From contig NZ_KB903368.1 in assembly GCF_000379665.1 (NCBI RefSeq), positions 186,001-250,000 of the forward strand: a stretch of 64,000 nucleotides of DNA, given 5' to 3'. Below the pieces are notes generated by a model. The model made no database searches, was not told the origin of the DNA, and saw nothing but the letters and a program-made list of their open reading frames with translations. Origin of the DNA: Butyricimonas synergistica DSM 23225. Its GTDB lineage: Bacteria; Bacteroidota; Bacteroidia; Bacteroidales; Marinifilaceae. The position numbers were made by a program, and so were the translations under genes. Positions 20,654 through 55,961 of the stretch are shown piece after piece. Every line of letters begins with the position of its first letter. The stretch's first letter is position 1.

Positions 20654-20659
20654 GATATA

Positions 20660-22975: not shown

Positions 22976-22985
22976 GAAGAGGATT

Positions 22986-23915
22986 ATGGCAAATAAGATA
23001 GTTGAAGTGAAAGCTCTTTCACATCGTTATAGCGTGGAGTGGGCTATTAGAAATATAAATTTTGAGATCAATTCGAAAGGCGTTTTCGGTTTGTTGGGTT
23101 CCAATGGTGCCGGTAAGTCTACGACAATGAATATTATATGTAACGTGTTGACTCAAACAGAGGGACGTGTTCTTATTAATGGAATTGATTTACGGAAAGA
23201 TCCGATAAAAGCTAAAATGTATATCGGTTTTCTCCCCCAAAAAGCTCCCTTGCACACGGATATGACAGTTGATGAATATTTATATCATTGTGCGGATATA
23301 CGATTAATTCCTAAAGCCGATATCCCTGCAGCAGTAGAGAGAGCCAAGGAAAAATGCGGAATATCTCTTTTCAGTAAGCGGGTTATTGCCCATCTTTCCG
23401 GAGGCTACCAACAACGTGTGGGCATAGCCCAGGCTATTATTCATGATCCGTTGTTTGTCATTTTGGATGAACCCACGAATGGCTTGGATCCGAATCAGAT
23501 CGTGGAGATTCGTCATTTGATACGGGAGATTGCCGAGGAGCGTGCCGTGTTGATTTCTACACATATACTTCCGGAGGTTCAGGCTGCTTGTGATTATATC
23601 ATGATGATCGAGCACGGGAATATGGTGTTTGAAGGTACAATCGAAGAATTTAATCATTATATGGAGCCTAGTGTATTGTTGGTAATTATGCATAATGCCC
23701 CCGAGGATGATACGGAACTTTTAAATATTGAGGGGGTGAAACGGGTTGAACGATTGACCCGTACCCGTTTCCGTTTGCATTTTGAAGGAGATAGTTCCAT
23801 CGTGGATAGAGTTGTAAACAAGTCAGTTCGCGATAATTGGCATCTTCGGGAAATATCGATGGAGAAAGAAGCGTTGGATAAAGTGTTTGCTAAATTATCA
23901 GGAAAATCATTCTAA
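22986..23915 (+). CDS. ABC transporter ATP-binding protein, GldA-like (locus 1, pair B)
   Basis: A 309-aa ATPase closely similar to that of pair A (same SHRYSVEWAIRNINFEI opening). Walker A is GSNGAGKST, the signature LSGGYQQRVGIAQA and Walker B FVILDEPTNGLDP. All catalytic motifs are intact, so this is not a decayed copy. It lies 10 bp after the permease of pair A and 12 bp before its own permease. The C-terminal 90 residues differ most from pair A, perhaps reflecting distinct partners. Confidence 0.92.
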   Translation: MANKIVEVKALSHRYSVEWAIRNINFEINSKGVFGLLGSNGAGKSTTMNIICNVLTQTEGRVLINGIDLRKDPIKAKMYIGFLPQKAPLHTDMTVDEYLYHCADIRLIPKADIPAAVERAKEKCGISLFSKRVIAHLSGGYQQRVGIAQAIIHDPLFVILDEPTNGLDPNQIVEIRHLIREIAEERAVLISTHILPEVQAACDYIMMIEHGNMVFEGTIEEFNHYMEPSVLLVIMHNAPEDDTELLNIEGVKRVERLTRTRFRLHFEGDSSIVDRVVNKSVRDNWHLREISMEKEALDKVFAKLSGKSF

Positions 23916-23927
23916 AAGAAAATATTG

Positions 23928-26225
23928 ATGAGAACAATAATGAGAATAATGAAGACAGAACTTAGAGTGATGTTCTTCTCCCCTATAGCTTGGATGGTTT
24001 TAATTGTTTTTGCGTTTCAGGCGGGCTTGACTTATTGCGATGAAATGAGCGATCAATTGCGGCATTTAGCCATGGGGTATCGTCCCTATAATGTTACGGT
24101 AGCTTTATTCGGTTATCGCGGAGTACTGGCAGAGATGTTGAATAATCTTTACTTGTATATTCCTCTTTTAACCATGGGGTTGATGAGTCGGGAATTGAGC
24201 AGCGGATCGATAAAATTACTTTATTCATCCCCTGTTTCTAATTTTCAGATTGTTATGGGAAAATACTTTTCTGTCGTGGTGTACGGGGTAATGTTGATTT
24301 TTATCTTGTTGATACCAGTGGTTTTCACGATATTTACAATTAAAGATCCGGATATCCCTCTTATGTTCACGGCGTTGTTGGGTGTTTTTATCACGATATG
24401 TGCTTATGCCGCTATTGGATTATTTATGTCCACGATCACGAAATACCAAGTGGTTGCGGCGATAGGGACATTGGCGATATTGGCTGTGTTGAATTTTATC
24501 GGAGGAGTGGGACAGGATATTGATTTTGTTCGTGATATCACTTACTGGTTGTCTATTTCCGGGCGTTCCAGAATCTTTTTAGAAGGAATGATTTGTAGTC
24601 GTGATATCTTGTATTTTATACTTGTGATCTTTATGTTCTTGGCTTTCACATTTATAAAATTGCAGGGAGAACGATTGAAAAGATCTGTCGTGACAACGAG
24701 TATAAGTTATCTTTTGGTTCTTGCATTTGTATTATTGGCTGGATATGGTTCTTCCCGTCCGGCAATGATCGCTTATTATGATGTTACTGCCACGAAAGTG
24801 AATACGTTGACACCCAATAGCCAGGAGATTATGAAAAAGTTGGATGGAGGTTTAACCTTGACCACTTATGTCAATCTTTTGGACGACACGTGGTATAATG
24901 GTTCGCCGGGATCCAAGAATTATGATATGAAGCGCTTTGAACGTTACGTGCGCTTCAAGCCCGAGATGAAGATTGAATACGTGTATTATTATGGAAAGGG
25001 AACAAGTCCGCATTACGATAAGGTTTATAAAGATTTGTCCACCGAAGAACGTTTTCTGAAAGTTTGTGAAGGAAGCGACTATAATCCGAAGATGTTTATC
25101 TCGGCGGAAGAGGTGAACAAGACCGAGGATATTTCTGCCGAGAACGGGCGATTCGTTCGGGTCTTTAAACGAGATAACGGACAGAAAGCATATTTGCGAA
25201 TTTATAATGACCAATATGTTCATCCTTTCGAGAGCGAGATTACAGCAGCTCTTAAAACATTAGTGGGTAAATCGCCTAGAATTGCTTTCGTTACCGGTCA
25301 CGGGGAGCGTGGTTGTGGTGACTATGGGGATAGGGGATATGCTGCTTTTGCTAAAAATCCTGCTTTCCGTAATGCGTTAATCAATCAAGGATATCAGGTG
25401 CAGGAATTAACCTTGGATAAACCCGTACCTGAGAACGTGGATGTCGTGGTTATATCGGATATGAAATCTTCTTTTACTTCAGAAGAATTCGAGAATTATC
25501 GTTCTTTTGTTGATCGGGGTGGGAATCTGATTATTTTAGGGGAATCTAGACGTCAGGCTTTCATGAATCCTCTTGTGGAAGAGTTAGGTTTACGTTTTTC
25601 TGATGGAATATTAGTGGCTCCTTCCAAGCAGTATTTAGCTGATATTATAGCGGCGAATATCATGGAAGGTGCGTTAAACGTTTCACCCTATTTTGCCAAT
25701 ATGATAAAGCGCAATAATACAGTGATAACACCTTCCGCATGTGCCGTGCAAGTGATCGATTCCATGAAAGGGTTTACAATATCGGAGGTTTTGGCAACTC
25801 GCCCCCAGGGATCTTGGATTGAATATGAAACCACTGATTTCCTGAACGAAACCGTGACAATAAATCCGAATAAAGGAGAGGTGGAACAATCTAATTCCGT
25901 GATGTTGTATCTGACACGGGATATTGCGGATAAACAGCAACAGCGGATTTTTGTAATCGGGGATTCAGATTGTTTGTCCACGAAAGAGTTGTCGACAAGT
26001 AGAGCCGGGCTTAACGGGGCGAATTTTGAATTGATAACAGAAATGTTCCGTTGCTTGTCTTACGGTGAATACCCGATAGAAACCAGTCGGGTTCGTCCTC
26101 CGGATGACAATGTTTATCTTTCCCAAAATTCACTGATCTGGCTGCAACTCCTGTTTATCTGCTTGATCCCGTTAGGTATTATGGTTTGGGGAATTACATT
26201 TTTGATAAGAAGAAAAAGAAATTAG
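23928..26225 (+). CDS. GldF/GldG-like fused ABC permease and periplasmic domain protein (pair B)
   Basis: A 765-aa paralogue of the pair A fusion with the same plan: ABC-2 permease (FFSPIAWMVLIVFAFQAG, MGLMSRELSSGSIKLLYSSPV), extra helix, GldG-like periplasmic domain (TKVNTLTPNSQEIMKKLDG; PRIAFVTGHGERGCGDYGDRG), and C-terminal helix with RRKRN. ATG 23928 is preferred over the TTG directly before it. The cytoplasmic and membrane parts resemble pair A more than the periplasmic loops, as expected from duplication and divergence. Last gene of the locus 1 string; a terminator follows. Confidence 0.85.
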   Translation: MRTIMRIMKTELRVMFFSPIAWMVLIVFAFQAGLTYCDEMSDQLRHLAMGYRPYNVTVALFGYRGVLAEMLNNLYLYIPLLTMGLMSRELSSGSIKLLYSSPVSNFQIVMGKYFSVVVYGVMLIFILLIPVVFTIFTIKDPDIPLMFTALLGVFITICAYAAIGLFMSTITKYQVVAAIGTLAILAVLNFIGGVGQDIDFVRDITYWLSISGRSRIFLEGMICSRDILYFILVIFMFLAFTFIKLQGERLKRSVVTTSISYLLVLAFVLLAGYGSSRPAMIAYYDVTATKVNTLTPNSQEIMKKLDGGLTLTTYVNLLDDTWYNGSPGSKNYDMKRFERYVRFKPEMKIEYVYYYGKGTSPHYDKVYKDLSTEERFLKVCEGSDYNPKMFISAEEVNKTEDISAENGRFVRVFKRDNGQKAYLRIYNDQYVHPFESEITAALKTLVGKSPRIAFVTGHGERGCGDYGDRGYAAFAKNPAFRNALINQGYQVQELTLDKPVPENVDVVVISDMKSSFTSEEFENYRSFVDRGGNLIILGESRRQAFMNPLVEELGLRFSDGILVAPSKQYLADIIAANIMEGALNVSPYFANMIKRNNTVITPSACAVQVIDSMKGFTISEVLATRPQGSWIEYETTDFLNETVTINPNKGEVEQSNSVMLYLTRDIADKQQQRIFVIGDSDCLSTKELSTSRAGLNGANFELITEMFRCLSYGEYPIETSRVRPPDDNVYLSQNSLIWLQLLFICLIPLGIMVWGITFLIRRKRN

Positions 26226-26372: not shown

Positions 26373-26404
26373 TGCCGCTGTTAGGCGGCACAGGTACCTG
26401 TTAT
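26373..26404 (-). repeat. Cassette-type intergenic element at the distal end of the immunity array
   Basis: TGCCGC-TGTTAG-GCGGCA is a perfect hairpin at 26373-26390, directly followed by the palindrome CAGGTACCTG and then TTAT at the stop codon of the last immunity gene. It shares GTTAGGCGG and the terminal TGTTAT with the element at 28330-28378. Confidence 0.7.
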
Positions 26405-26910
26405 TGTTGCATTTGGTTAATGCAATCGGTTAATATACTGCTAATCTCCTTGCAATCATTAACTAGCTCCTCTAATTCGCTTTCATCCATAAAGTTTGCC
26501 AATTCATATTCCTCTGGCGTATGTATAAATTTGTTCAAAGCGTTTAGAAGCAGCATTGCATCGTCTTTCGATGTGGAAATAGAGAATTTATTAGAATATT
26601 CGCTACTCGGATCTAATTTTTTTATATCCACCTCTCCATTTTTGATACTTTCCAATAAAATGGCTGATAAATCTATTACCACATCAATAGCCATATCAAA
26701 ATGCGGTTCTTTCGATTCATCTATACTGAAATAGACATCTCCTCCATTTACCGCATCTTCTTTTAGCGGAGTATTCAAATGGATATCAGATAAAATTTCG
26801 CTTAACTTGAAATTGCTTTGCTCTTGAGTTCCGAAATAATCCAGCAATAGAAGGGAATCATCACATCCACCTACATAATTGCCCCACCATTTTTTAATGT
26901 AGAGTTCCAT
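26401..26910 (-). CDS. Putative immunity protein (Imm68-like)
   Basis: A 169-aa soluble acidic protein without signal peptide. The opening MELYIKKWWGNYVGGCDDSL resembles the WWGNYxGGxDDSL start that I associate with the Imm68 immunity family of polymorphic toxin systems; this is from memory and unverified. The rest is helical and Asp/Glu-rich, common for toxin-neutralising proteins. Last member of the minus-strand array; a cassette-like hairpin element overlaps its stop. No toxin gene is nearby. Confidence 0.6.
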   Translation of the reverse strand: MELYIKKWWGNYVGGCDDSLLLLDYFGTQEQSNFKLSEILSDIHLNTPLKEDAVNGGDVYFSIDESKEPHFDMAIDVVIDLSAILLESIKNGEVDIKKLDPSSEYSNKFSISTSKDDAMLLLNALNKFIHTPEEYELANFMDESELEELVNDCKEISSILTDCINQMQQ

Positions 26911-26940
26911 ATTCTTTAGTTTGTAATTTATTTATTTGAC

Positions 26941-26989
26941 GATAATGGTTGTTTTGCCCACGTAACCTGCGAGTTAACAATTATAACGT
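26941..26989 (-). repeat. Diverged intergenic element (array)
   Basis: It begins GATAATG like the better-conserved elements and contains a weak GTAAC/GTTAAC inverted repeat, but lacks the GC-rich hairpin. Membership in the repeat family is uncertain. Confidence 0.35.
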
Positions 26990-27475
26990 AATTTTGTATG
27001 TTTCAATTGTTTTCGTAGCATTGAACATTTTTACGGATGTATCCATCATCTCTTGTATATAATCTCCGGAATTCATTGTTGAAAAGAATAGAATATCCTC
27101 TCTTTTGAAACCGTTTTTCAAGAATATTTCATCGGGAATTTGTCTGATACTTCTTTCCAATACAGAAAGTAAAACTTGCGCAAACGCCCACTTTTCATCA
27201 GACGGATTTAAAAAATCAATATCCTTGCAATCTTCAACAATGTCGACAAGAGGCTGATAAAGGAAATTCGGTTCAAGTCCGTTTTCCCAATCGTAATACT
27301 GATCAATGTTATTACTGCAATCCCATGTCAGATAAAAGCCATAAAAATCATCTGTTGTTATAAAGCCAATGGCACATGTGTTTTTACCTTTGGCAGTATT
27401 CAGAATCTTGTCGATTTCATGAGGTAACTCCAGGGAACACCTTTTGCTAAATTCCTCCAATTTTGCTATATCCAT
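26981..27475 (-). CDS. DUF4303-like putative immunity protein
   Basis: A 164-aa soluble protein. The central CAIGFITTDDFYGFYLTWD segment, with aromatic residues and the following WENGLEPNFLYQPL, looks like DUF4303, a domain seen mainly in poly-immunity loci and contact-toxin gene clusters. The assignment is by eye. It lies 29 bp after the next upstream gene of the array without an intervening hairpin element, so these two may travel as one unit. Confidence 0.6.
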   Translation of the reverse strand: MDIAKLEEFSKRCSLELPHEIDKILNTAKGKNTCAIGFITTDDFYGFYLTWDCSNNIDQYYDWENGLEPNFLYQPLVDIVEDCKDIDFLNPSDEKWAFAQVLLSVLERSIRQIPDEIFLKNGFKREDILFFSTMNSGDYIQEMMDTSVKMFNATKTIETYKITL

Positions 27476-27504
27476 CTTTTATTATAAATTTTCTTGGTTA
27501 TTAA

Positions 27505-27936
27505 TTAATCAGATACTTTTTTATTTTTCCTCACATCAATATGAAGTAAATCATCGTGGTCTGTAATACTGTATAATTCCATAAAATCCAACGTCATCAG
27601 ATAAAATTCATCCAGACCTTCACAATCACCTATGAATACATGTATGTCGGACATCCTTGCTTTATAAATAACAAAATCTTTGTTCCAATAGTTAATGATG
27701 AAATAAAGAACCGTATTCTTGTCTATGACATCCAGTAAATGCCAATAGGGATCTTCCCTATTGCAATCAATGCTATATGGTACATATTTAAAGTTTAACC
27801 ATAATGCACGGGGATTACCAACCACAAAAGTATCATATAGTCTTTGTATTAACCACTCTTTATCAGCATTTTCTATTTTCTGAAATAAAAGATTATTATC
27901 CTTGATTGTTCTTTCTATTTCTTTATAATCAAACAT
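27505..27936 (-). CDS. Small acidic protein of the immunity array, family unknown
   Basis: A 143-aa soluble protein (MFDYKEIERTIKDNN...) rich in aromatic and acidic residues, with a distinctive FIGDCEGLDEFYLM segment near residue 105. I do not recognise the family with confidence. Size, composition and position between immunity-like genes suggest an immunity role (inference only). The start at 27936 is the only good ATG. Confidence 0.5.
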   Translation of the reverse strand: MFDYKEIERTIKDNNLLFQKIENADKEWLIQRLYDTFVVGNPRALWLNFKYVPYSIDCNREDPYWHLLDVIDKNTVLYFIINYWNKDFVIYKARMSDIHVFIGDCEGLDEFYLMTLDFMELYSITDHDDLLHIDVRKNKKVSD

Positions 27937-27965
27937 GGCATTTTGTTTCGTCGTTTATGGAATTA

Positions 27966-28001
27966 AGCTAACTGCATTTAGTCGTTGAGTTGATTGTTAT
28001 C
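27966..28001 (-). repeat. Diverged intergenic element (array)
   Basis: It contains CTAAC...GTTGAGT and ends in ATTGTTATC, matching the TTGTTAT end of the other elements. The hairpin is poorly conserved. Confidence 0.4.
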
Positions 28002-28036
28002 AATGTTTTTATATTATTGTCTTATGACATCAGGTA

Positions 28037-28321
28037 CTAATATGCTGCCTTCCCAATATGTTTTACCTCTTTATTATCAATCTTACAACACCATTTTACA
28101 TGTGTGAAGTTTTGTATATTACATACAGTTACACATCCGCTTGCCAATAAATCATCTCTGTTGCCTGTTTCATCGTAATCGATTTCGCAAATTTCAATTC
28201 TTAAGCCTTCTGCCAGAAAATGTTCATTTCCACAAACATCTTTCCTTACATCAGATTGAGATAATAAGACCAGATCATCTTCTAGCCATTCATTAAAATC
28301 AACTTTAAACCTTGGTGTCAT
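28037..28321 (-). CDS. Small protein of the immunity array, family unknown
   Basis: A 94-aa soluble protein with a short beta-rich pattern (LRIEICEIDYDETGNRDDLLASGCVTV...VKWCCKID). No signal peptide and no known motif. It is bounded by cassette-like elements on both sides, consistent with one gene per unit. It could be an immunity protein or a small accessory domain; I would not name it further. Confidence 0.5.
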   Translation of the reverse strand: MTPRFKVDFNEWLEDDLVLLSQSDVRKDVCGNEHFLAEGLRIEICEIDYDETGNRDDLLASGCVTVCNIQNFTHVKWCCKIDNKEVKHIGKAAY

Positions 28322-28329
28322 ATTTCATT

Positions 28330-28378
28330 GATAATGGGATGCAGCTTGCCGCCGTTAGGCGGTACAGGTGCTTGTTAT
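28330..28378 (-). repeat. Cassette-type intergenic element (array)
   Basis: GATAATG at the left, then TGCCGCC-GTTA-GGCGGTA hairpin (one G-T pair), near-palindromic ACAGGTGCTTGT and TTGTTAT next to the stop codon of the upstream gene. Very similar to the element at 26373-26404. Confidence 0.7.
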
Positions 28379-28382
28379 CCAA

Positions 28383-28931
28383 CTACGCAATTTGTTCTAT
28401 TCGGCATTTCTGACATAAGGGATAAGAAGCAATGAATGGTTCTATTTTTTGTTTCATTTCAGCAAATGAAATCCCATAAAAATACAAAGCTGTCCATTCA
28501 TTCCCTTCCCAATAACTATAAAAGCGACCTATGCTCTCCATAGCTGATTCCATCTGCTCAATGACATGATTAATGTCACAACTCTCATAAACTTCATCCG
28601 GCAATTCCGTTCCATTGCCGTAATAAGCCAATCCCTCCAAAGTTCCTACTTCTATCTTAAATTCAGGTGTCATACATAATAATGCTGAACCTTTGGGAAT
28701 ACCTATTTTATTAACAAGTTCTACCAAACGGTTTATGCTATCTTGCTTATCATCATTTAGGTGAATCTCTATATCACAGGAGATAATCTCTCCGGTTTGT
28801 GGATTTTGTAGCGTTCCTCCACCCATTACTTCTCCCAATTTTTCCTTTTCAAGAATTTCTTGAAGTGCATCTTCCAAATCATGTCTGTGCATGGGTTGCA
28901 AACGTGAGTTCAAATTCAATGTTAGTTCCAT
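28383..28931 (-). CDS. Immunity-like protein of the array, family unknown
   Basis: A 182-aa soluble protein in two lobes. The first 75 residues (MELTLNLNSRLQPMHRHDLEDALQE, EVMGGGT, ISCDIEIHL) look like a ferredoxin-like alpha/beta unit. The rest (VGTLEGLAYYGNGTELPDEVYE; FYSYWEGNEWTALYFYGISF) is aromatic-rich and helical. No catalytic motif or export signal. It stands between two well-formed intergenic elements, so it looks like one complete cassette. The immunity role is inferred from context. Confidence 0.55.
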   Translation of the reverse strand: MELTLNLNSRLQPMHRHDLEDALQEILEKEKLGEVMGGGTLQNPQTGEIISCDIEIHLNDDKQDSINRLVELVNKIGIPKGSALLCMTPEFKIEVGTLEGLAYYGNGTELPDEVYESCDINHVIEQMESAMESIGRFYSYWEGNEWTALYFYGISFAEMKQKIEPFIASYPLCQKCRIEQIA

Positions 28932-28954
28932 ATTTTTTATTATTTTATTTGTTG

Positions 28955-29006
28955 GATAATGTCCGGCAGATAATCAACCGTTAGGGGAGATTCATCCGTT
29001 TGTTAT
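28955..29006 (-). repeat. Cassette-type intergenic element (array)
   Basis: GATAATG at the left, AACCGTTAGGGG in the middle and TTTGTTAT at the right. The same layout as 28330-28378, with a less perfect stem. Confidence 0.6.
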
Positions 29007-29018
29007 GTGCCTTATTTA

Positions 29019-29552
29019 TCATTCTTCTTCGTATTCTTCAGCACTTTTAAGGCCTCGTATGAAGTCCTCAAAATTTTCTGCTAAAGGAGTTATTTTGAAA
29101 TCAGATTCTTGGTCGATATGCACAACTTTTGGTTCTCCGAGTGGACCACATTCTCGATAATCTAAGAAAACCATATCATGCCCTGCACTCGGACAATCAC
29201 AAATAGCGACTCCAATAGCAGGATAGCCCCATTCATCAATCATAAACTGACTGCCAATTTCACCACATAGTGAATAGTCCTTTTCCCTACCTATACCGTA
29301 AATGCCAGTTATAGCAATATGATCTTTAGCCCAATTTGTGGGTGAATCAGTAGGGAAGCATGTATTGAAAGGGATGCCTCCATTATGCTGCTTCATCAGC
29401 CATATATAGGAAGCTGGCAACTTGTATCCTAATTCTTTCTCTACATCAGCTATCAGTTCATCAGTTGGGACATCACTGATATACGATTTACGAGCATAGT
29501 AATTATCATCCCAGAAGTTTGTAAAATCAAAACCTTCAAATTCTTTTTCCAT
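29019..29552 (-). CDS. SMI1/KNR4 (SUKH) family immunity protein
   Basis: A 177-aa soluble protein of the SUKH superfamily, widely used as immunity proteins against polymorphic nuclease and other toxins. Marks are ADVEKELGYKLPASYIWLMKQHNGG (the classic LPxxYxxFLxxxNGG start), followed by the GIYGIG strand, EWGYPAIGVAICDCPSAGHDMVFLDY and a closing helix NFEDFIRGL. First gene of the minus-strand array, preceded by a -7-like box at 29635-29642. No cognate toxin is present, so it probably protects against toxins of neighbours. Confidence 0.85.
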   Translation of the reverse strand: MEKEFEGFDFTNFWDDNYYARKSYISDVPTDELIADVEKELGYKLPASYIWLMKQHNGGIPFNTCFPTDSPTNWAKDHIAITGIYGIGREKDYSLCGEIGSQFMIDEWGYPAIGVAICDCPSAGHDMVFLDYRECGPLGEPKVVHIDQESDFKITPLAENFEDFIRGLKSAEEYEEE

Positions 29553-31328: not shown

Positions 31329-34300
31329 TTATTTTTTAACCCATTTCACGGCATCGGCTACGATAAAGTGTTTCGGGCTGTTTCCCCGGTCGTCCAGGAT
31401 CACTCTCGCTTTGCCTCGCGGGAAATAGAATTTCCCTATCGAGAACCATCCCCGGTGTTCCCTGGAGATGTCAATCTTGATTTCTTCGCTCTTGCCCTCG
31501 CTGTCTTCTATCGTGTAATGGTAGCACGTCCCTTCTGCGTGAGTGTCTATGTCCGTACGCTCCTCCCAGTGTTGTATCACGTAAACCTGCACCTCGCGCA
31601 TCCCGGCTTCCGGCAATTCCGCTTCCCAGACCGCCTTGAACTTCCCTCGCCCGCGTTGCCTGTAATACGCGCTTCGCACCACGTCCCCGTGTAAATGTGG
31701 AGAGATCCATTTCGTCCATCCCTCGCGTCGTTGGACAAAATTGTCTTCCGGGATAACCTCTTCCCTGCCGAGGACCCGTTGCAGCCAACCGGTGGAATTT
31801 CCTTCCAGGTGGAACCCGGGATCCTCGTTGTCCACGATAATCTCCCCGGGGGAGACGAGAAACTCTCCCGGGGAAATATCATGAACCCCCACCGTCGTGT
31901 CGGAAGTGTGTAAAGATGGCGGTTGCAACGTTGAAGAGTAAGAGGGGGGGGTGTATCCCCCCGGTTTATTCTGGGACAGGCCGAAATACACGTCAGCGCC
32001 ATTTCCCAGCACGCTGATCTCTTTACATTCCCCGGGCTGGATGTAAAAAATATCAGTAAAATAAATGTCAGCCAGTAACAAAAATCCTCCCTGCCCGGAC
32101 GGGTTATACACCTTTAACGAGGTTTTGGTCCGGCGGGGGAAAGGTTCTCTCACCACCTCGTACTTGATGTCTTTTATCAAGAAACAGGGTAACTCCCGGG
32201 ACGTGTACCATCCCGGTAAAAACGGCATCAGATCCACCCCGAGATCCGACTTGATATCCGCCACCAGTTCTTCCAGTGGGATCTCCCGGGGACGTTCCCG
32301 GTAATAATCCCTCAAGTAACGATAAAAGTCATCGAACTTCATCCCGTGCCAGCAGACGTAATTTCCCAGTACCACGCCTTTCTGCTCGATGATGGAGTTC
32401 AATAAATGGGGATCCATGCCCGGTTCGTTTAATGCGTCTTCTAGGCTCTTGTCTTTCAAGTAATCTCGCACCCCGTTCGGGATGTTGAAATTCATTCCCC
32501 CCTTTCGTCTGAGAATTTGCTGCATGGTTCGTTTCAATGCGAGGTCTAGCACGGGGTAATCCGTGGAAATCACCCTCCCTGCCGGGACCTTCATCAAGGG
32601 ATAACAAGACACCTCGTTGCCCCGGGACGAGGGGATGGAGGAACAGAACAAGTCGTTAACGAACGTGTCGTTATCCCGGCAATAAATATCTAGATCCAGC
32701 AAATTACCCACCGCAATTTGTACTGTATTACCCTCGAACCTTTTCACCGATATCTGTTCAGGTCTTCTCGTGGCCGCAAACCGGTTTACGCTGTATCGAA
32801 AATCGTACAACCATGCCAGGCTAGCCCCGAGCTCCGGGTAGAACACCATCCCCGGTTGCGATAGCTCGCTCTTTCCCTTGACCGCCCGGAAATAGGAGGT
32901 GAAAGCCAGGGGGGTTTCTATCAATCTTAACTTGCCAGACGGGTATTCGAAGTCACCCCTGTCCCCGATCTCTTCCTCTATCAAGTACTCGATCTCGTCA
33001 TGGCGCAACCTGGTGAAGGCTCCCGAGAAGAAGTCATGCCCCTTGAAGTGATACACCTCTATCGTGAAAGGATTTGACACGTGTTTCTTTTTTCCTCTAT
33101 TATACGGGTCTATACTCACGTTAAAATCCTTCACCCGTGCGCTTTTCCGCGCGTAATACCCCGCGCACAAGCTGATCCCTTCCAACGGAGTTCCCGTGTC
33201 GAAACACCAGTCGCCGCCTTCCCGTCTTGAAACGCCTTGCGAGAGTACGGCGCGATCGCCCGCGTCTTTCACTCGCAAGTGAAAGCGGGTGAAATTCACT
33301 CCCGGTACCGGTTTCGATAAAGCCACGGGAGGGATGGTTACCGGGTACCAGATACATTCCGGCAACAACAAGGTGAACTCCTTCCCGGTGTAAGCGTAAC
33401 GGCGTCCCCAGTGGAACGCGGCGTCAAAACGGCTCGTGTTGTAATAATCCTTGTCGGGGATATCCAAGTAACAAACCCGCTCGTCTATTTTCCCAGAGTA
33501 ATCCATCTCGAGCACCACGCTGTCCCCCTCCGGCAGGGGAATATCCACGACCAGGGCTTGTCCTTCTCGTTTGAAGGTCACTGCCTTATTCCCGGATTCC
33601 ACCCGGTTTACCTTCAAAAAGGGATTCAGGTACAGCACCACCCGCGATAAATTCTTCCCCGTCGGGTTCCATACCTCCAGTCGGCTGGAAAGGTTTAACT
33701 CGTCCCCGGAGTTGGAGAAAACGATATCGTGTTCCTTCACCCGGGGCGTGTGTTCTCCCTCGTGCTCGAGGTAAACCGCCCGGTATCTCTCCCTTGCCCG
33801 CTGTTCTTCCCGGAAAGATTTGTCCCGCGCCCACCCGAAACAAAACCCGACCAGCAACAAGATGCCCCCGAGCCGCGACAAGAAACGGGGACTTGAGACC
33901 CGGTTGAACAAACGTCGCGAGAAACAAACGGTCAGCATGAATAACCCGGCACCGCCAAACAGGAAACATGCCCGGTGCAACAGGTAAGCCTTCAAATCCA
34001 CGTGTCCCATCACGGGAGAGAACAGGTTAGACTGGTGTGTCGCCAGGAAATTGAAGGCGTCCCAGCGCTTTCCCGGCAACACGGTTACCGTCAGGAAAAA
34101 GAGGATCATCAACGACAATAGCGACAGCCAGCGGTTGCTTAACGAGAAAACTATAAAGAAGGAGAGCGCCAGCATGAATACCGTGGAAGGTAGAGTCAAG
34201 GTGAACCAGTAAAACATGTAAACGGGAAAACTGAACGGGGCGTTGCTGGCAATGCCGTTCACCGCCATGCCCGCTGCCATCACCACGAGGCTCAATAGCG

Positions 34301-34652
34301 CGAATCCCGAGCCCATGCCGGCAAACTTCCCGGCGATATACTCGAGGTTGCTTTCCGGGTGTACCCGGATCGCGTCAAGCGTGGCAGTACCCCGCTCCCT
34401 CGTCCAGAGGTCTAGCACGGCAAAGGGTATAAAAAAGGACTGGAACAGACAAAGAAGAAAAGCGTTCACGTAAGGGATGGAAGAAGGCAAAGCCACCATG
34501 CTCCAGCTGTAAACACCGTAAGTACTTTGACAAGCGACGTGGAACGAGAATATTCCCGCCACGAGCAGTAAAGCGTAAACCCGAAACGCCCAATTACGTC
34601 CCAGCAACAATAACTCGCTTTTTGCGACTTGATACACGAACGCCCTGTTCAT
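31329..34652 (-). CDS. ABC-2-type permease / M1-like / golvesin-like fusion protein (copy 1)
   Basis: An 1107-aa membrane protein. Residues about 15-260 hold six membrane helices of ABC-2 permease type (SELLLLGRNWAFRVYALLL; RVHPESNLEYIAGKFAG). Residues about 300-880 are a periplasmic region like the M1-aminopeptidase part of known permease/M1 fusions (beta start LVVDIPLPEGDSVVLEMDYSG), but without an HExxH zinc motif, so peptidase activity is doubtful. Residues about 975-1107 form a golvesin/Xly-like beta-sandwich (CYHYTIEDSEGK; EHRGWFSIGKFYF; HFIVADAVKW). No ATPase gene is adjacent. It follows a small secreted protein gene by 22 bp, an arrangement repeated at 52561-56402. Confidence 0.75.
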   Translation of the reverse strand: MNRAFVYQVAKSELLLLGRNWAFRVYALLLVAGIFSFHVACQSTYGVYSWSMVALPSSIPYVNAFLLCLFQSFFIPFAVLDLWTRERGTATLDAIRVHPESNLEYIAGKFAGMGSGFALLSLVVMAAGMAVNGIASNAPFSFPVYMFYWFTLTLPSTVFMLALSFFIVFSLSNRWLSLLSLMILFFLTVTVLPGKRWDAFNFLATHQSNLFSPVMGHVDLKAYLLHRACFLFGGAGLFMLTVCFSRRLFNRVSSPRFLSRLGGILLLVGFCFGWARDKSFREEQRARERYRAVYLEHEGEHTPRVKEHDIVFSNSGDELNLSSRLEVWNPTGKNLSRVVLYLNPFLKVNRVESGNKAVTFKREGQALVVDIPLPEGDSVVLEMDYSGKIDERVCYLDIPDKDYYNTSRFDAAFHWGRRYAYTGKEFTLLLPECIWYPVTIPPVALSKPVPGVNFTRFHLRVKDAGDRAVLSQGVSRREGGDWCFDTGTPLEGISLCAGYYARKSARVKDFNVSIDPYNRGKKKHVSNPFTIEVYHFKGHDFFSGAFTRLRHDEIEYLIEEEIGDRGDFEYPSGKLRLIETPLAFTSYFRAVKGKSELSQPGMVFYPELGASLAWLYDFRYSVNRFAATRRPEQISVKRFEGNTVQIAVGNLLDLDIYCRDNDTFVNDLFCSSIPSSRGNEVSCYPLMKVPAGRVISTDYPVLDLALKRTMQQILRRKGGMNFNIPNGVRDYLKDKSLEDALNEPGMDPHLLNSIIEQKGVVLGNYVCWHGMKFDDFYRYLRDYYRERPREIPLEELVADIKSDLGVDLMPFLPGWYTSRELPCFLIKDIKYEVVREPFPRRTKTSLKVYNPSGQGGFLLLADIYFTDIFYIQPGECKEISVLGNGADVYFGLSQNKPGGYTPPSYSSTLQPPSLHTSDTTVGVHDISPGEFLVSPGEIIVDNEDPGFHLEGNSTGWLQRVLGREEVIPEDNFVQRREGWTKWISPHLHGDVVRSAYYRQRGRGKFKAVWEAELPEAGMREVQVYVIQHWEERTDIDTHAEGTCYHYTIEDSEGKSEEIKIDISREHRGWFSIGKFYFPRGKARVILDDRGNSPKHFIVADAVKWVKK

Positions 34653-34674
34653 TTTCCCTTGGTATTAAATGTAA

Positions 34675-35013
34675 TTAGTCATCTAGCGGAATCTCATTAA
34701 GCCTGATGTCTCCATAAATAATAAGAGCAGGATCATCTTCCTGTATAGTAAAGGTACGTTCAAATGGTTCATAACCTGTCTTTTGGAATGTTACTTTATA
34801 TGCTCCAGGCGATTTACACGTGAACGAAAATCGATTGCCTGATAATTCATATTCAAAATTTCCATTATCTGGTTGAGTTATTTTACTAACTTCAACGCCT
34901 TCCGGGTACACGTCACAAGCACCATAATAAATGCCTTTACTTGGGGCACTTATCATTGCACTCCCCATAAAAAATACTAGAGCCAAAAAAGATTTTAAAA
35001 CAAGTGATTTCAT
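34675..35013 (-). CDS. Small secreted beta-sandwich protein (partner of permease fusion, copy 1)
   Basis: A 112-aa protein with a signal peptide (MKSLVLKSFLALVFFMGSAMISA). The mature part looks like a short PEGA or carboxypeptidase-regulatory-type beta-sandwich: FSFTCKSPGAYKVTFQKTGYEPFERTFTI. The equivalent gene of copy 2 has FEMECDQPGLYTVTFYGIGYVSKHIDFYA at the same place, so both share a fold and probably a role. The family name is unknown to me. It is transcribed just ahead of the permease fusion. Confidence 0.65.
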   Translation of the reverse strand: MKSLVLKSFLALVFFMGSAMISAPSKGIYYGACDVYPEGVEVSKITQPDNGNFEYELSGNRFSFTCKSPGAYKVTFQKTGYEPFERTFTIQEDDPALIIYGDIRLNEIPLDD

Positions 35014-36315: not shown

Positions 36316-36957
36316 ATGGCTACATTAAATGATTCTTTATTGAGAGGGGCGTCTGGGAAGCTTGATGGTTACGTGATTTACCAGGTAGGTAAGAAGACGT
36401 ATATTCGGAAATTGGCGGAGAAGGTGTCTAACCCTCGGACGGACGGGCAGACGATGCAACGTGCGAAGTTGCCGGGAGCGCAGACGATGTATCGTGCCAT
36501 GCGGGATGGCGTGTTGAAAGACGTGCTTGATGTTGCGGCTCGCGAGGAAGAGCGGCGTTCCGGTTACCATTGGTTCTTGCACGCGAATATGAACGTGTTC
36601 GGGAAAGACCACTATATTGATTATTCGAGATTGGAATTGACGGCAGGGAGTTTGCAATTGCCTTTTGAGATGAAAATGGTCGAGGGGAACGAAACGTATG
36701 TGTTGTTTAGCTGGATAGACAATTCCGGTTCGGTGACGGCACAGGCGACAGACCGGTTGCTGGTGGCAGCGATATTTGACGATGAACCGTATAGTCCCGT
36801 TGTTTTGGAAATGGATACGGCTTGTAGGGCTGACGGGGCGGGAGTCGTGAATTTGCCGGAGGGCACGTGGAAAACGGTGCATTTGTATTGTTTTTTCGCT
36901 TCGGAAACGGAGAGGCGTTATTCCCCGTGCCGGTATTTTTGTATTAGTAAATCTTAA
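36316..36957 (+). CDS. DUF6266-like protein, first of tandem pair
   Basis: A 213-aa soluble protein without signal peptide. The N-terminus (LRGASGKLDGYVIYQVGKKTYIRKLAEKVSNPRTDGQTMQRAK) has the SGKxGxxVxY...NPRTxxQxxQR layout I associate with DUF6266, a Bacteroidetes family of unknown function. The C-terminal half is beta-rich (NETYVLFSWIDNSG; LVAAIFDDEPYSPVV). It lies 12 bp before a related gene, which lies 33 bp before the sigma gene of locus 2, so the pair may be co-transcribed with the regulator. Function unknown. Confidence 0.7.
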   Translation: MATLNDSLLRGASGKLDGYVIYQVGKKTYIRKLAEKVSNPRTDGQTMQRAKLPGAQTMYRAMRDGVLKDVLDVAAREEERRSGYHWFLHANMNVFGKDHYIDYSRLELTAGSLQLPFEMKMVEGNETYVLFSWIDNSGSVTAQATDRLLVAAIFDDEPYSPVVLEMDTACRADGAGVVNLPEGTWKTVHLYCFFASETERRYSPCRYFCISKS

Positions 36958-36969
36958 AAAGGAACGGTT

Positions 36970-37599
36970 ATGGCTATATTCGATTCGACTATTTTTCGGG
37001 ATTTGTCGGGGTCCGTGGGAAACGTGACTGCGTATAAATTGGGTGACAAGCAGGTGGTGCGGGCAAAGACTTTTATCGTGCGGGACCCGAAGTCTTTGGC
37101 ACAATTGAAGCAGCGTTTGCGGATGAAGGTGGTAGTTAAACTCAGGTGGGGATTTGTCGGGGTATTGCCCTTGGGGTTTTGTACTTCGTCGAATAAGGCA
37201 TGTTTGAATGGTTTCTTGAGAGAGAATATCAAAAAAGTGGAGGTGGATGATGATTTGAACGTGACGTGCGATTTGTTGTCCCTTTCGCTTTCAGCCGGGG
37301 AGTTGGCGTTGCCATCGATACGGGCGGAGGTGCGTGTGGAGGAGCGGCAGGTGGTGTTTCGTTGGGAACGGCAGCCGTTGATGCCTTATATGTTCAAGGA
37401 TGACCGTTTGTACGGGGTGGTGTACGAGAGCGATTTGCGGAAGTGTAGGGGGGTGGAGTTGGGGACGAGGGGAATAAGCGGGGAACTGGCGTGGAAGTTG
37501 CCGGAGAAGTGGGATGCGGGAAAGTTGGTGGTGTATGGCTTTGCCGTGAGTGCCGACGGGAAGAAGGCATCGGGGACGTTGGGCGTGTGCAGGAGTTGA
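36970..37599 (+). CDS. DUF6266-like protein, second of tandem pair
   Basis: A 209-aa soluble paralogue of the preceding gene: FRDLSGSVGNVTAYKLGDKQVVRAKTFIVRDPKSLAQLKQRLRMK follows the same pattern (the first copy has NPRT where this has DPKS). The C-terminal half again shows VVFRWERQ and LYGVVYESDLRKC strands like the first copy. Divergence between the two is high, so the duplication is old. Tight spacing to ECF sigma gene 2 (33 bp) suggests joint expression. Confidence 0.7.
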   Translation: MAIFDSTIFRDLSGSVGNVTAYKLGDKQVVRAKTFIVRDPKSLAQLKQRLRMKVVVKLRWGFVGVLPLGFCTSSNKACLNGFLRENIKKVEVDDDLNVTCDLLSLSLSAGELALPSIRAEVRVEERQVVFRWERQPLMPYMFKDDRLYGVVYESDLRKCRGVELGTRGISGELAWKLPEKWDAGKLVVYGFAVSADGKKASGTLGVCRS

Positions 37600-37632: not shown

Positions 37633-38217
37633 ATGGATGATTTTCAGGATAGTGATATGTTGGTGAAGTCCTTGCGGAGCGGTGAGGAAAGGGCATTCGT
37701 GTATCTTTTTGATAATTATTATGACGGTTTGGTGAATTATGCCGGGCGTATCGTGAGGGAGGCGGAGTTGGCAAACGATTTGGTGCAGAGCACGTTTTGC
37801 AAGCTTTACGAGGAGAGAAAAGGGTTGGATGTACGGCTGTCGATCAAGTCGTATTTGTATAAGTCGGTGTATAATAGTTGCCTGAACGCGATCAAGCATC
37901 AAAAGGTGGTGCGTAATTATATCGACCGGGAGATGCTGGATTTTTATTTCGAGGAGGTGGTGCAGCGGCCGGAGGTGGAGGTGGAATTGCTGGAGCAGGA
38001 TCTGAGAAAGGCGCTTGACGAGGCGGTGGATCGGTTGCCGGAGCGTTGCCGGGAGGTGTTCGTCTTGAGTAAAATGGAGGAGTTGTCGAACAAGGAGATT
38101 GCGGATAGGTTGAATATTTCCGTGAAAACGGTTGAAGCACAAATGACTAAGGCTTTATCCCGTTTGCGGAAGGATTTGGAATGGTTACTTTGTGTTATTT
38201 TTATTACAAATTTTTGA
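37633..38217 (+). CDS. ECF-type RNA polymerase sigma-70 factor (locus 2)
   Basis: A 194-aa sigma factor. Region 2 is FDNYYDGLVNYAGRIVREAELANDLVQSTFCKLYE (about residues 28-62). Region 4 is LPERCREVFVLSKMEELSNKEIADRLNISVKTVEAQMTKALSRLRKDL (about 136-184). It lies 57 bp before its fecR and should activate the susC2 promoter. Unlike sigma genes 1 and 3, no palindrome was found directly upstream; it follows the DUF6266-like genes instead. Confidence 0.93.
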   Translation: MDDFQDSDMLVKSLRSGEERAFVYLFDNYYDGLVNYAGRIVREAELANDLVQSTFCKLYEERKGLDVRLSIKSYLYKSVYNSCLNAIKHQKVVRNYIDREMLDFYFEEVVQRPEVEVELLEQDLRKALDEAVDRLPERCREVFVLSKMEELSNKEIADRLNISVKTVEAQMTKALSRLRKDLEWLLCVIFITNF

Positions 38218-38274
38218 TTCGGGCGTAGGGGTTATCCTTTTCTGGGTTGTCATATAGGTATAAAGGAAAGTACT

Positions 38275-39447
38275 ATGGCAAACGAAATGGATAAATTGAT
38301 ATGGCGAGTGCTTGACGGGAAGGCTTCTCCCGGGGAAGTTCGCCGTGTGGTAGAGTGGGTGAGGGAGCCGGGCAACAGGAAGTATTTTCGGCAGTTGCGG
38401 AAGGTGTGGAATCTGGTGAACGGTCCGCGTGTCACCCCGGAGCGGAAACGGGAGGAGTTGGAACGGTTCCGGAATTTCATGCGGCAACAGCCCGGGGGAA
38501 AAGAAAGGCGTTTCGTCCGGAGGATGGGATGGTACAAGTACGCTGCCGTGGTGTTTATTCCTGTTTTGATTGTTGTTTATTTGTCGTGGCACGAGTTTGC
38601 CCGTGAGGATACGCGGGTGCTTTTGAGCGAGGAACCGGTGTACCCGGGTACCCGTCAGGTGATATTGACTATCGCGGGCGGGGATACGATTGCCTTGCAA
38701 CCGAATCGGGATGTGGATATACAACTGGCAGGGCAGTTGCGTGTTGTTGGTTCGGGAGAGAGCATCGCTTACGAGTTGGGCGAGGGTGAGAACGAGGGCG
38801 AGGAGCGGTATAACACGTTGGCGACGCCGGTCGGGGGCGAGTATCAGGTGGTGTTGTCCGACGGATCCCGGGTGTGGTTGAATGCCTTGACGGAGTTGCG
38901 TTACCCGGAGATATTCAAGGAGGATTGCCGGGAGGTGTATTTGAGTGGGGAGGCTTATTTCGAGGTGGAGCACGATCCGGGACGTCCGTTCGTGGTGGTG
39001 GCGAACGGGGTGGAAGTGACGGTTTACGGTACGCGGTTTAACGTGAATAATTACGGGGCGGATGTGGTGCGGACCGTGCTTGTCGACGGTAAGGTGGGAA
39101 TACGGGTTGCGGGCTCGGGCAAGGAGGTTGTGTTGAGCCCGAGTGATATGGCGGAGTGTTTCGAGGGTACGCGGGAGGTGAAGGTGAGGAAGGTGGACCC
39201 CTATGTGTACACGGCGTGGAAGGAGGGTAAGTTCGTGTTCGAGGATGAACCTATCGAGGAGATTATGTTGCGGTTGAGTAACTGGTATGGTATAAAAGTT
39301 TTTTATACTGACGAACGGGTGAAGAAACAAACTTTCACGGGTGTGATTACCCGTTACACGGAGGTGGGTAACGTGTTGCATTTGATAGGGGAAACGGCTG
39401 TCGTGCGATTCCAGTTGAACGGGAATGTCGTGACCGTGGGCACGTGA
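38275..39447 (+). CDS. FecR-family anti-sigma factor (locus 2)
   Basis: A 390-aa membrane anti-sigma protein: cytoplasmic residues 1-85, membrane helix about 88-105, FecR domain about 180-295 (TPVGGEYQVVLSDGSRVWLN, VYLSGEAYFEVEHD, VTVYGTRFNVNNYG), and intact C-terminal DUF4974-like domain (IEEIMLRLSNWYGIKVFY to the end). Pairs with the upstream sigma factor and the downstream SusC. Two hairpins directly follow the gene. Confidence 0.93.
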   Translation: MANEMDKLIWRVLDGKASPGEVRRVVEWVREPGNRKYFRQLRKVWNLVNGPRVTPERKREELERFRNFMRQQPGGKERRFVRRMGWYKYAAVVFIPVLIVVYLSWHEFAREDTRVLLSEEPVYPGTRQVILTIAGGDTIALQPNRDVDIQLAGQLRVVGSGESIAYELGEGENEGEERYNTLATPVGGEYQVVLSDGSRVWLNALTELRYPEIFKEDCREVYLSGEAYFEVEHDPGRPFVVVANGVEVTVYGTRFNVNNYGADVVRTVLVDGKVGIRVAGSGKEVVLSPSDMAECFEGTREVKVRKVDPYVYTAWKEGKFVFEDEPIEEIMLRLSNWYGIKVFYTDERVKKQTFTGVITRYTEVGNVLHLIGETAVVRFQLNGNVVTVGT

Positions 39448-39456
39448 TAAAGATAA

Positions 39457-39509
39457 AACCGGCAGTTATTGGGCTAACTACCGGTTGTAAATTGATGCGT
39501 TTGCATCAA
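39457..39509 (+). promoter_or_regulatory. Tandem hairpins between fecR and susC (locus 2)
   Basis: Hairpin 1 at 39457-39486 has 12-bp arms (AACCGG-c-AGTTA / TAACT-a-CCGGTT, one mismatch) and a TTGGGC loop. Hairpin 2 at 39492-39509 has perfect TTGATGC/GCATCAA arms with a GTTT loop. The position matches loci 1 and 3, and the TTGGGC loop recurs in locus 3. Confidence 0.75.
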
Positions 39510-39532
39510 AATGTCAAACAAATTACAAAGTT

Positions 39533-42500
39533 ATGAAAAAATTTGAAGAATCGGGAATTTATGTCGCGAGAGGGTGTGTTTTGCTGTTGTTTTTGTTGTT
39601 TTCGACGGGAATTATGGCGCAACACCAGAAGGTGACGATCGACGTGAAAGATGTCGGTGTTCAGGACGTGTTTAAATCTATTAACAGGCAGACGGGGTTG
39701 GATTTCGTGTATGGGGCGTTGCAGTTGAAGGAGCTTGGTACGGTGACGCTTCAGATGAGGGATGTGGCGGTGGAGGAGGTGATGGCGAAGTTGTTTGCCG
39801 GAACGCGGTTCGAGTACAAGTTTGAGATGAAGTCTATTATTATCAAGGAGAAGGGAAAGAGGAATGAACCGGGGAACTTGAGTTTGAGCGGGAGCGTGAG
39901 GGACGAGCGTGGGAACCCGTTGCCGGGGGTGACGGTGGCAGTGAAGGGTATTCGTTTGGGTACTGCCACGGATAAGGACGGGAAGTATAAGTTGGTTTTC
40001 CCTCGGGTGGAGAAGCCGGTTATCGTGTTTTCTTTTATCGGGATGGAAACGGTGGAGGTGAAGTACGCGGGCAAGGACACGATCGACGTGGTGATGCGGG
40101 AGAATGTCGCTGAACTGGAGGAGGTGTTGGTGCAAACGGGTTACCAGTCGATAGACCCGAGAAAGAATACCAGCGCTGTCACCACGATCAAGGCAGCGGA
40201 TATTATGGCTCCGGGGTTGCAGACGATAGACCAGATGCTGGAGGGGTACGTGCCGGGGATGGTTTTCATGCAGAACACGGGACAGATTGGTGCCGCGCCG
40301 CGTTTGCGGGTGAGGGGGACTTCCACCGTGTTGGGGTCGCAGGAGCCATTGTGGGTGATTGACGGGATCGTGCAGGAGAATCCGGTGAACGTGGATCCCT
40401 CGCAAATTAATGATTTGGATTTCGTGAATTTGCTGGGGAATGCCATATCCGGCTTGAACCCGGAGGATATCGAGCAGATCGATGTGTTGAAAGATGCCTC
40501 GGCAACGGCTATATACGGTGCCCGGGCGGGGAATGGCGTGATCGTGATCACGACGAAGAAGGGAAAGGCGGGGCCGCCCTCGGTGTCGTATTCGTTTTCC
40601 GGCACGTATACCCGTCGCCCTTATTACACGGACCGCGCGGTGAACGTGATGAATAGCGAGGAGCGGATTGATTTCTCGCGGGAGTTGATTGCCAAGCAGA
40701 CGGTTTACCCGACAATTAAGACTTGGATCGGGTACGAGGAAGCGATCAGGAAGTATTACCGGGGAGAGATTTCTTTCGAGAAGTTCCAGCAGGACGTGGG
40801 GTATTACGAGCGGGTGAACACGGATTGGTTCGATTTGTTGATGCAAAATTCATTCTCGCATAAGCACACGCTGAGTTTGTCGGGCGGAACGGACAAGACG
40901 AAGTATTACGCTTCCGTGGGGTATAGCGATATGAAGGGTGCCGAGCGAAGGGAGAAAAATAAGTTGTATTCGGTCAGCCTGAAGGTGGATGTGAATTACA
41001 ACCGTTTCGATTTGCATTTTGATATGAAGGGAAACGTGGGCGAGAAGAGGTACACGCCTTCGGACGTGGGCGTGACGGAGTACGCTTACAACACGACGCG
41101 GGCTCTTCCCGCTTACACGGAGTCGGGCGATTACTGGTATTACGCGCGGGAAGGAAACGATAATACGGGTTACGAGCAGTTGTTTAATATCCTGAAGGAG
41201 GTGGAGAACAGCACGCAGGATATTGATTCTCACGGGATGACTTTTACCGGGACGCTGGGTTACCGTATCATGGACCCGTTGAAGCTTGCCTTGACGCTTT
41301 CTTATTCGGTGAATAACACGGAGCAGGATATCTGGCACGGGGAGGATACTTATTATTGCAGGAGGTTGAGGTCGAATATGCCGGACGGTTCGGAGAATCT
41401 TAATTATAATAGATTGCCCGTGGGTGGGGAATTGCAGGAGAAAAACACGAGAAGGAACGCCTATACTTTGAGGGGACAGTTGAATTTCAACAAGTATTTG
41501 GATGGTGCACAGGATCACATGATCGTGGCGGCTTTGGGAGGGGAGATGTCTTCTAACAAGTACAAGGGGCTGGAGCAGACTTACCGCGGTTTTTTGAAGG
41601 AGCGCGGGTTGCAGATGGCGGAAGTTGATTTGAAGAAGTACGTGAAGTACGCGGAGTGGTTGCAGACGCCGGAAGCGAAGGGGATTCGCTCGGATCAATT
41701 GACGAATATGATTTCGGGGTATTTCACGTTGTCGTACAGTTACAAGGATTATTACACGTTGAATTTTAATACCCGCGTGGATGCCTCGAACAAGTTCGGT
41801 TCCCGGGCGAATGACAAGTTTTTGCCGATCTGGTCGGTTTCCGGGAGGCTTAATTTGAAGGAGGCGTTCATGGAGCGAGCCAATTGGGTGAACACGTTGG
41901 CTTTGCGGGCTTCATTCGGTTACCAGGGGAATATGCTGGATTCGGAAACGGTGGAAACCGTGATAAAGCGGGGAACGCATGATAAGTATTTTGAAGAGTA
42001 TGCTTCCAGTATTTACAAATATCCTAATCCTTTGTTGAAGTGGGAGAAAATTTCCAGCGTGAACACGACTTTGGATTTCTCGTTTTTAAAGAATAAGATC
42101 CGGGGATCTGTTTCTTACTATTACAAGAAGACGAGGGATGCATTCTTGAGCAAGAAGGTTTCGGAGGTGAACGGGATAAACGCTTACGTGGTGAACAAGG
42201 GTACGCTGACGAACCGTGGCGTGGAACTCGCGTTGAATTTCATCCCGGTGAACACGTTTGGCGGCGGTTCGAAAAATGGTTTTCGCTGGAGTTTTGATCC
42301 CCAGTTCGGGCAGGTGATCAACAAGTTGCTTAACAAAGCTATAAATAACGGCAAGAAGCAGAGTTTGCGCGACGAGGATAATATTACTTACACGGATTAT
42401 TTGAATGGAAGGGTGGAGGTTGCCGGTCGGCCGTTGAACAGTTTCTTCTCTTACCGTTTCGCGGGTTTGGATCCGGCGGACGGGCGCCCGATGTTCAGCG

Positions 42501-43216: not shown

Positions 43217-43228
43217 TCGTGTAAGGTT

Positions 43229-44698: not shown

Positions 44699-44709
44699 AA
44701 AAGAGAGAG

Positions 44710-45621
44710 ATGAAAAAGATTTTATTTGTATGGATGCTGTGTTGCGGGCTGGCGGCTTGTAACCGGGATGATCAGGATACTCATGTTTCTTACAAGGATA
44801 TGGAGTGGTACGTGGTGGAGGATAGCGATGACGAGTTGGACCATTTGATTTATGAGGTTTATAAGTCCACGGGGATTCCTCTTTTTTACAAGGATACGAT
44901 TCGGAGCCGTACGGAGGTGAATGAATGGGGTGGGGAGTACACGCTTTACTCGATATTGAACCCGAATTACATGATAGAGAGTATGTCTAAGTTGTGGACA
45001 TTCACGAAGTCGACGGACCGGGAAAAATTGAAGAAGGGGGTAGAGTTGTTCCGGGATAAGGTGTATCCCAAGCTCCCGAAGGGGTATCGCTCGGCGTGTT
45101 ATCTTTTGGTGGACCAGTTGCGTCAAAAGGAGTTTTATACGGATGTCGTGGGAGCTCGCAAAGGGATGAATACGACGGTTATCGGCCGGGTGGCAGAAAT
45201 GGATGCGATGTCCGAGGAGGAGCAGGAGCGTTTGGCTTGGGAGGTGGTTGCCGAGGAGGTGTATGATAGTATCCAAGCGTATTATCCCAAGGATTTGGAT
45301 GCATTTTTCAACGTGAGTTTCGTGTTGTGTAAAAAGAAAGACGTGTATTCGGATCTTATCACGAAATTTAAGACGAATATCCCGAATTATAATGCCGGAT
45401 CAAATGGTGCGGCTACGGACCCGAGGGAAGCCGGTTTCTTGCGCTGGTGGCAGAGTAAGAGGTATACCCCGGAGTACAAGGATGACGTGTGCGGTTACCT
45501 GATAGAGGTGTTGCTGGGCGATGACGAGGGATTCGCGGAGCGGAACGCGGGTTTCAACGGATGCCTCGAAAAATATGATATGATCAAGGCGATCGCCGTG
45601 GATATGGGGCTTAGGAGGTAA
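44710..45621 (+). CDS. Lipoprotein of locus 2, possibly related to SusCD-linked metallopeptidase-like proteins
   Basis: A 303-aa lipoprotein with signal peptide ending LAAC. The early LDHLIYEVYKSTGIPLFYKDTI resembles the start of the putative zinc metallopeptidase lipoproteins that often follow SusD genes (they start with a similar xWLYxxxxxPYNIxVxYR pattern). No HExxH motif is present, so it is either a non-catalytic relative or an unrelated surface protein. It occupies the same slot as the DUF4843 and PKD lipoproteins of locus 1 and precedes the ABC genes by 108 bp. Confidence 0.6.
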   Translation: MKKILFVWMLCCGLAACNRDDQDTHVSYKDMEWYVVEDSDDELDHLIYEVYKSTGIPLFYKDTIRSRTEVNEWGGEYTLYSILNPNYMIESMSKLWTFTKSTDREKLKKGVELFRDKVYPKLPKGYRSACYLLVDQLRQKEFYTDVVGARKGMNTTVIGRVAEMDAMSEEEQERLAWEVVAEEVYDSIQAYYPKDLDAFFNVSFVLCKKKDVYSDLITKFKTNIPNYNAGSNGAATDPREAGFLRWWQSKRYTPEYKDDVCGYLIEVLLGDDEGFAERNAGFNGCLEKYDMIKAIAVDMGLRR

Positions 45622-45626
45622 GTTTA

Positions 45627-45697
45627 GTCTATAAAGTTTGTAAGGTCCATAAGGTCGAAGGTCCATGGACTCCTGTGGCTTTATGGATCTTATAGAC
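45627..45697 (+). promoter_or_regulatory. Long imperfect stem-loop between the lipoprotein and ABC genes (locus 2)
   Basis: GTCTAT (45627-45632) and AAGGTCCATAA (45642-45652) pair with TTATGGATCTT and ATAGAC (45681-45697), with a 9-nt bulge on the left. A perfect GTCCATGGAC palindrome (45661-45670) sits in the loop. It occupies the same position as the terminator in locus 1 (19648-19680). Confidence 0.65.
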
Positions 45698-55944: not shown

Positions 55945-55961
55945 CTTCTTCCTGCTTTAGG

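Follow-up and report, generated by a model that had tools for sequence, protein, structure and literature searches.

Among described systems, the active ABC permease/M1 fusions, which we take to be the proteins named "ABC transporter permease / M1-family aminopeptidase fusion" in NCBI annotation of Bacteroidota, share with the proteins treated here an ABC-2 permease N terminus and a periplasmic M1 fold; a homologous ATPase is encoded directly upstream of them (loci L157-L164). An ABC-2 permease with a periplasmic extension is likewise found in GldA/GldFG-type systems, which are abundant in the same genome and window, and an ABC permease with a large periplasmic part in MacAB-TolC. Golvesin_C (PF25275) is also the C-terminal domain of a Paenibacillus xanthan lyase (6f2p). 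Judged by titles and abstracts, the golvesin literature searched mostly concerns the Dictyostelium marker protein and has nothing on such fusions; no paper was recognised on M1/ABC-2 fusions or on the fusion gene family described below.

The window, i.e., the whole stretch of 64,000 nt analysed here, comes from Butyricimonas synergistica DSM 23225; the genus belongs to the Odoribacteraceae, Bacteroidales. A first-pass annotation, made from the letters and their open reading frames, had noticed the same gene pair twice, and both pairs were recovered at the coordinates given, with intact fusion ORFs. Copy A consists of a fusion (P0001; 31329..34652, minus strand, 1107 aa) and a small secreted beta protein of putative carboxypeptidase-regulatory/transthyretin-like type (P0002; 34675..35013, minus strand, 112 aa); copy B consists of a second fusion (P0003; 52561..55944, minus strand, 1127 aa) and a second small secreted beta protein (P0004; 55962..56402, minus strand, 146 aa, or 169 aa from an alternative upstream start at 56471). 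The two fusions are 43% identical across their full length. Both small genes lie upstream of their fusions on the same strand, and the short gaps of 22 nt (34653..34674, minus strand) and 17 nt (55945..55961, minus strand) make an operon probable in both copies. Elsewhere in the window, an immunity-type gene array is located at 26401-29552 (Imm68, DUF4303, DUF6756 just under the cut-off, SUKH_6/SMI1), with no toxin gene recognised near it; genes for a GldA-type ATPase and GldFG-like permeases come after each of two ECF/FecR/SusCD operons (10345-26225 and 37633-48980); two neighbouring ORFs of similar size occupy 36316-37599, the first matching DUF6266.

Both fusions combine an ABC-2 permease, an inactive M1 fold and Golvesin_C. 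In P0001, transmembrane segments occupy residues 21-278, the M1 saddle approximately 300-520, the M1 catalytic-like region approximately 521-830, and the golvesin domain approximately 976-1107. Seven membrane helices (21-42, 58-87, 102-135, 142-171, 174-190, 220-244, 255-278), read from the secondary structure of the predicted model (pLDDT 85.8, pTM 0.82) and from hydropathy, put the C-terminal 800 residues in the predicted periplasmic part. The golvesin-like domain proposed earlier on the permease fusion holds: Golvesin_C scores 46.9 and 46.5 bits in the two window copies (Pfam cut-off 31.6), is matched at the C terminus of all 19 fusion copies scanned, and gives a profile match to 6f2p. ABC2_membrane matches are weak in the fusions and below the cut-off in the window copies, and the GldG-like ABC_transp_aux domain has no match in either of these. 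For the region first called M1-like, the fold is upheld by profile search (PepN and glutamyl aminopeptidase, E=7e-5) and by the P0001 model, for which the Foldseek matches listed are all M1 peptidases (E about 1e-13); the zinc motif is lost, HExxH being found at the active site in none of 127 family sequences (two chance matches occur elsewhere in the chain). An active aminopeptidase was rejected on this ground. At four loci (L147, L151, L154, L024) the permease and the M1/golvesin part of the fusion occupy separate ORFs.

P0002 and P0004 have signal peptide-like N termini and share a PGxYxVTF...GY core, both as first described; the core match is weak but significant (26/84 identities, E=4e-11). 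P0002 scores 22.2 bits against CarboxypepD_reg (PF13620), under the Pfam gathering score of 32.3, and the top Foldseek match of its model (pLDDT 69) is a carboxypeptidase D transthyretin-like domain (probability 0.90, E=0.25, non-significant). The finding named at the outset as refuting the pairing, a small protein not conserved beside the fusion in any other genome, was not obtained: both window pairs are kept in Butyricimonas sp. Marseille-P3923 (loci L086 and L087), with fusions 88% and 94% identical and small proteins 75% and 88% identical. In the other four congeners searched, the small protein has no match, and none of the fusion copies fetched belongs to the window's clade. In single comparisons, dN/dS is 0.19 and 0.12 for the window fusions and 0.33 and 0.38 for the window small genes, so that all four genes are maintained; the corresponding single comparisons give 0.05 for the ATPase-linked fusion and 0.01 for its ATPase. 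Between the two genomes dS is 0.17-0.45 for the window's genes (against L086/L087) and 1.5 for the linked fusion; given the low dS, a recent exchange of the window cassettes between these genomes is possible.

The word "duplicated", used of the two pairs at the outset, understates their number: the pairs are real, and the genome carries 21 scattered fusion copies, two of them in the window, so that a simple two-copy duplication was rejected. Five Butyricimonas congeners have 6-17 copies and a 3.4-Mb genome of another genus of the same family (G010) has about 41, these counts being approximate as they come from merged matches; some expanded copies are broken or split. The remaining genera of the family mostly have one copy, a few of them several. 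A full-length fusion was found in 5 of about 395 genomes sampled across the phylum (this genome excluded), and a contig scan with P0001 returned one close relative only. The family has multiplied in one clade, without its ATPase, and genomes of Butyricimonas and of a related genus now hold 6-41 copies each.

Where a genome has one copy or one main copy, the gene of an ABC ATPase of about 300 aa immediately precedes the fusion, and TolC and HlyD genes come after it (20/20 loci); this ATPase/fusion/TolC/HlyD operon is the ancestral setting of the fusion family, which is not restricted to the present genome. At the linked copy of the present genome (L026) an RND gene additionally follows the TolC/HlyD genes. 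The cognate ATPase is not adjacent to the window copies, the expanded copies lack it, and most of these have no ATPase or TolC gene linked. In a FastTree tree of 127 sequences, for which no root was inferred, the ATPase-linked copies form one side of a single branch, and linkage changes once on the tree, vs. 24 times in shuffles. The distant relatives at L157-L164 are permease/M1 fusions of approximately 1,050-1,230 aa with the HExxH motif intact, the same type of ATPase upstream and no golvesin match. Together, the ATPase/TolC/HlyD loci and these HExxH-bearing, golvesin-less relatives make a descent in three stages likely: from an active ABC/M1 fusion to a zinc-less golvesin form in the ATPase/TolC/HlyD operon, and from this to the multiplied, ATPase-less copies. 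The three genomes tested each hold a single intact golvesin-type ATPase. That of G010 has been relocated and now stands last in a SusC-SusD-DUF4843-PKD operon, a decayed ATPase remnant being all that adjoins the linked fusion. A fusion copy in Marseille-P3923 (L085, C4:279426-283562) lies beside a second golvesin-type ATPase copy bearing a stop codon.

Of 101 expanded copies, 42 are immediately preceded on their own strand by a small gene encoding a signal peptide, vs. 14 of 334 control genes (p=5e-19; as signal peptides were called by a coarse rule on hydropathy, a few of them may be wrong); for over half of the expanded copies no small neighbour was recognised. Pfam domains in 39 upstream small proteins were I-set (7), fn3 (5), carboxypeptidase-regulatory-like (4), and ML (1); many copies other than the window's two have partners of unrelated folds. 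In the reverse test, Ig, fn3, and ML genes within 1 kb of a fusion were counted from seven whole genomes. All 14 I-set genes above the cut-off are stand-alone ORFs at most 1 kb from a fusion (0.5 expected; clustering of some of them limits their independence), as are 11 of 16 small fn3 ORFs (0.6 expected; of the others, two lie at 1.3 kb and three are orphans) and the single ML gene, vs. none of four fn3 domains in large ORFs. Some partners are convergent with the fusion. Partner type tracks the fusion tree (30 changes, vs. 66 in shuffles), and partner and fusion divergence are correlated in Mantel tests with ten pairs per partner type (Ig, r=0.56; fn3, r=0.86; carboxypeptidase-like, r=0.96, inflated by close orthologue pairs in the set; all p <=0.0004). 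Pairing and co-inheritance of fusion and partner are strongly supported, and the original interpretation is supported in part: that the two genes belong together is borne out by this correlation and by the pairs kept in Marseille-P3923. The position of many copies beside small secreted genes and the joint evolution of each pair point to an undescribed family of paired envelope proteins. Four stand-alone Ig genes are clustered among fusion copies in G010 (C7:889176-895111; L042, L043), and four related fusions (L076, L089, L097, L107) share a conserved secreted protein of approximately 548 aa, encoded 125-192 nt upstream.

Linked and expanded copies were compared by region in sequence pairs at matched overall identity (0.27-0.33). 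Identity in the predicted ATPase-coupling loop, taken as the loop after TM2 (residues 84-107), falls from 0.62 in linked to 0.28 in expanded copies, a larger loss of conservation than in any other region; the N terminus falls from 0.46 to 0.36, and the M1 saddle and golvesin domain change by +0.05 and +0.04. Residues K85, K89, and K110 (numbering of linked copy P0005) are invariant in linked copies and conserved in at most 41% of expanded copies. This loss in the loop and at the three lysines argues that the expanded copies no longer use the golvesin-type ATPase, though they may use another. R19 and N102, in cytoplasmic segments, are nearly invariant still in expanded copies, so that some coupling may be retained.

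The reading we tentatively prefer, at somewhat less than an even chance, is that an ABC/aminopeptidase has been turned, in the expanded fusions, into a periplasmic receptor that is anchored in the membrane and serves the co-inherited partner. The window holds two members of a lineage-expanded family of gene pairs. Their large protein goes back, in the likely descent given above, to an ABC permease driven by ATP and joined to an M1 aminopeptidase; it has lost the zinc motif and acquired the golvesin domain, and in one clade it has multiplied without its ATPase. A small secreted protein with a beta-sandwich fold (Ig, FnIII, ML, or carboxypeptidase-regulatory-like) is inherited together with many of the copies. 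On the preferred reading, pumping would have been lost in the expanded copies, which would serve as periplasmic receptors or docking platforms anchored in the inner membrane; the M1 saddle, the inactive peptide groove, and the golvesin domain may be the binding site of the cognate partner, alone or along with a ligand (peptide or glycan), and each pair may have its own recognition specificity. A glycan or envelope polymer had been named in the first-pass annotation as what the golvesin domain may bind. Binding between partner and fusion, absence of transport by the expanded copies, and the objects recognised by the pairs are what we infer. Counted against the receptor reading are the copies that adjoin ABC genes of GldA/GldFG type or come last in SusCD operons, the near invariance of R19 and N102, the expanded copies for which no small neighbour was recognised, and the three orphan FnIII genes; furthermore, a loss specific to the coupling region could reflect a switch to other ATPases.

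Such a switch leads to the main rival, a MacAB-like exporter driven by another ATPase, in which the small protein would reach the periplasm by Sec and be driven through TolC by its dedicated fusion, with the shared ATPase of golvesin type, or one of the numerous GldA-type ATPases, as energy source. The TolC and HlyD genes of the ancestral operon, the intact ATPase that all three genomes tested retain (G010 included, despite its relocation), the GldA/GldFG genes adjoining some copies, and the near invariance of R19 and N102 are consistent with export, but most copies are without a linked ATPase or TolC gene and the coupling loop is the region that loses most conservation in ATPase-less copies, which weakens this explanation; we regard it as rather unlikely. 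A part in the uptake of peptides or glycopeptides by TonB/SusCD, with the fusion as an accessory at the inner membrane and the small proteins as accessory binding modules, is suggested by a fusion directly after SusC-SusD-lipoprotein genes (L033), by another after SusD and TlpA genes (L147), by the place of the G010 ATPase, and by the two SusCD and ABC operons in the window; as most copies, the window's two included, lie outside SusCD operons, and single-copy fusions keep company with TolC/HlyD genes instead, this is considered improbable.

Two further explanations were weighed. The linkage could be by-catch of a mobile or amplifying segment whose proteins do not interact, a view in keeping with the many paralogues, some broken or split, and with partners in convergent orientation; it is made very improbable by the co-divergence of scattered paralogous pairs across genera and by purifying selection on the genes. 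Alternatively, the small Ig/FnIII/ML proteins might work outside the cell (e.g., as host-like adhesins or modulators), with the fusion as a processing or release factor. In 14 control genomes there is indeed no I-set or ML match, and the I-set domains of other members of the phylum belong to large multidomain ORFs (at least 335 aa among the matches listed); the exit of the partners from the periplasm is only putative, however, and their folds are generic beta-sandwiches, so that this view is given the least credence of all.

Returning to the receptor reading, a wider form of it, held with more reserve, would see in gut Bacteroidota an undescribed diversified recognition system of 20-40 paired cassettes per genome, each with a non-transporting ABC-permease/inactive-peptidase/golvesin receptor and an exchangeable single-domain secreted ligand of Ig, FnIII, ML, or transthyretin-like fold. 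If the pairs interact, an ABC transporter and a peptidase would both have lost their activity and given rise to a large set of paralogous receptors, as is rarely seen, and the partners of these receptors would come from folds usually tied to eukaryotic recognition. The cassettes offer a ready list of candidate receptor/ligand pairs from common gut bacteria, and the loss of the ATPase by an ABC permease can be followed in them as a natural experiment.

Compared with known systems, the window copies differ from the active ABC permease/M1 fusions, which keep the zinc motif (HEVAH, HEMAH, or similar), have no golvesin match, and are ATPase-linked, in being zinc-less and golvesin-bearing, with the ATPase not adjacent and with small secreted partners. 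GldFG-like proteins carry ABC_transp_aux and a directly linked ATPase, without an M1 or golvesin domain. MacAB-TolC is approached by the fusion's ancestral operon with its TolC and HlyD genes; the fusion system differs in its separate ATPase, in another periplasmic fold, and in the lack of an adjacent ATPase or TolC gene for most expanded copies. Unlike that of the xanthan lyase, the Golvesin_C domain of the window copies shares its chain with a permease and an inactive M1 fold.
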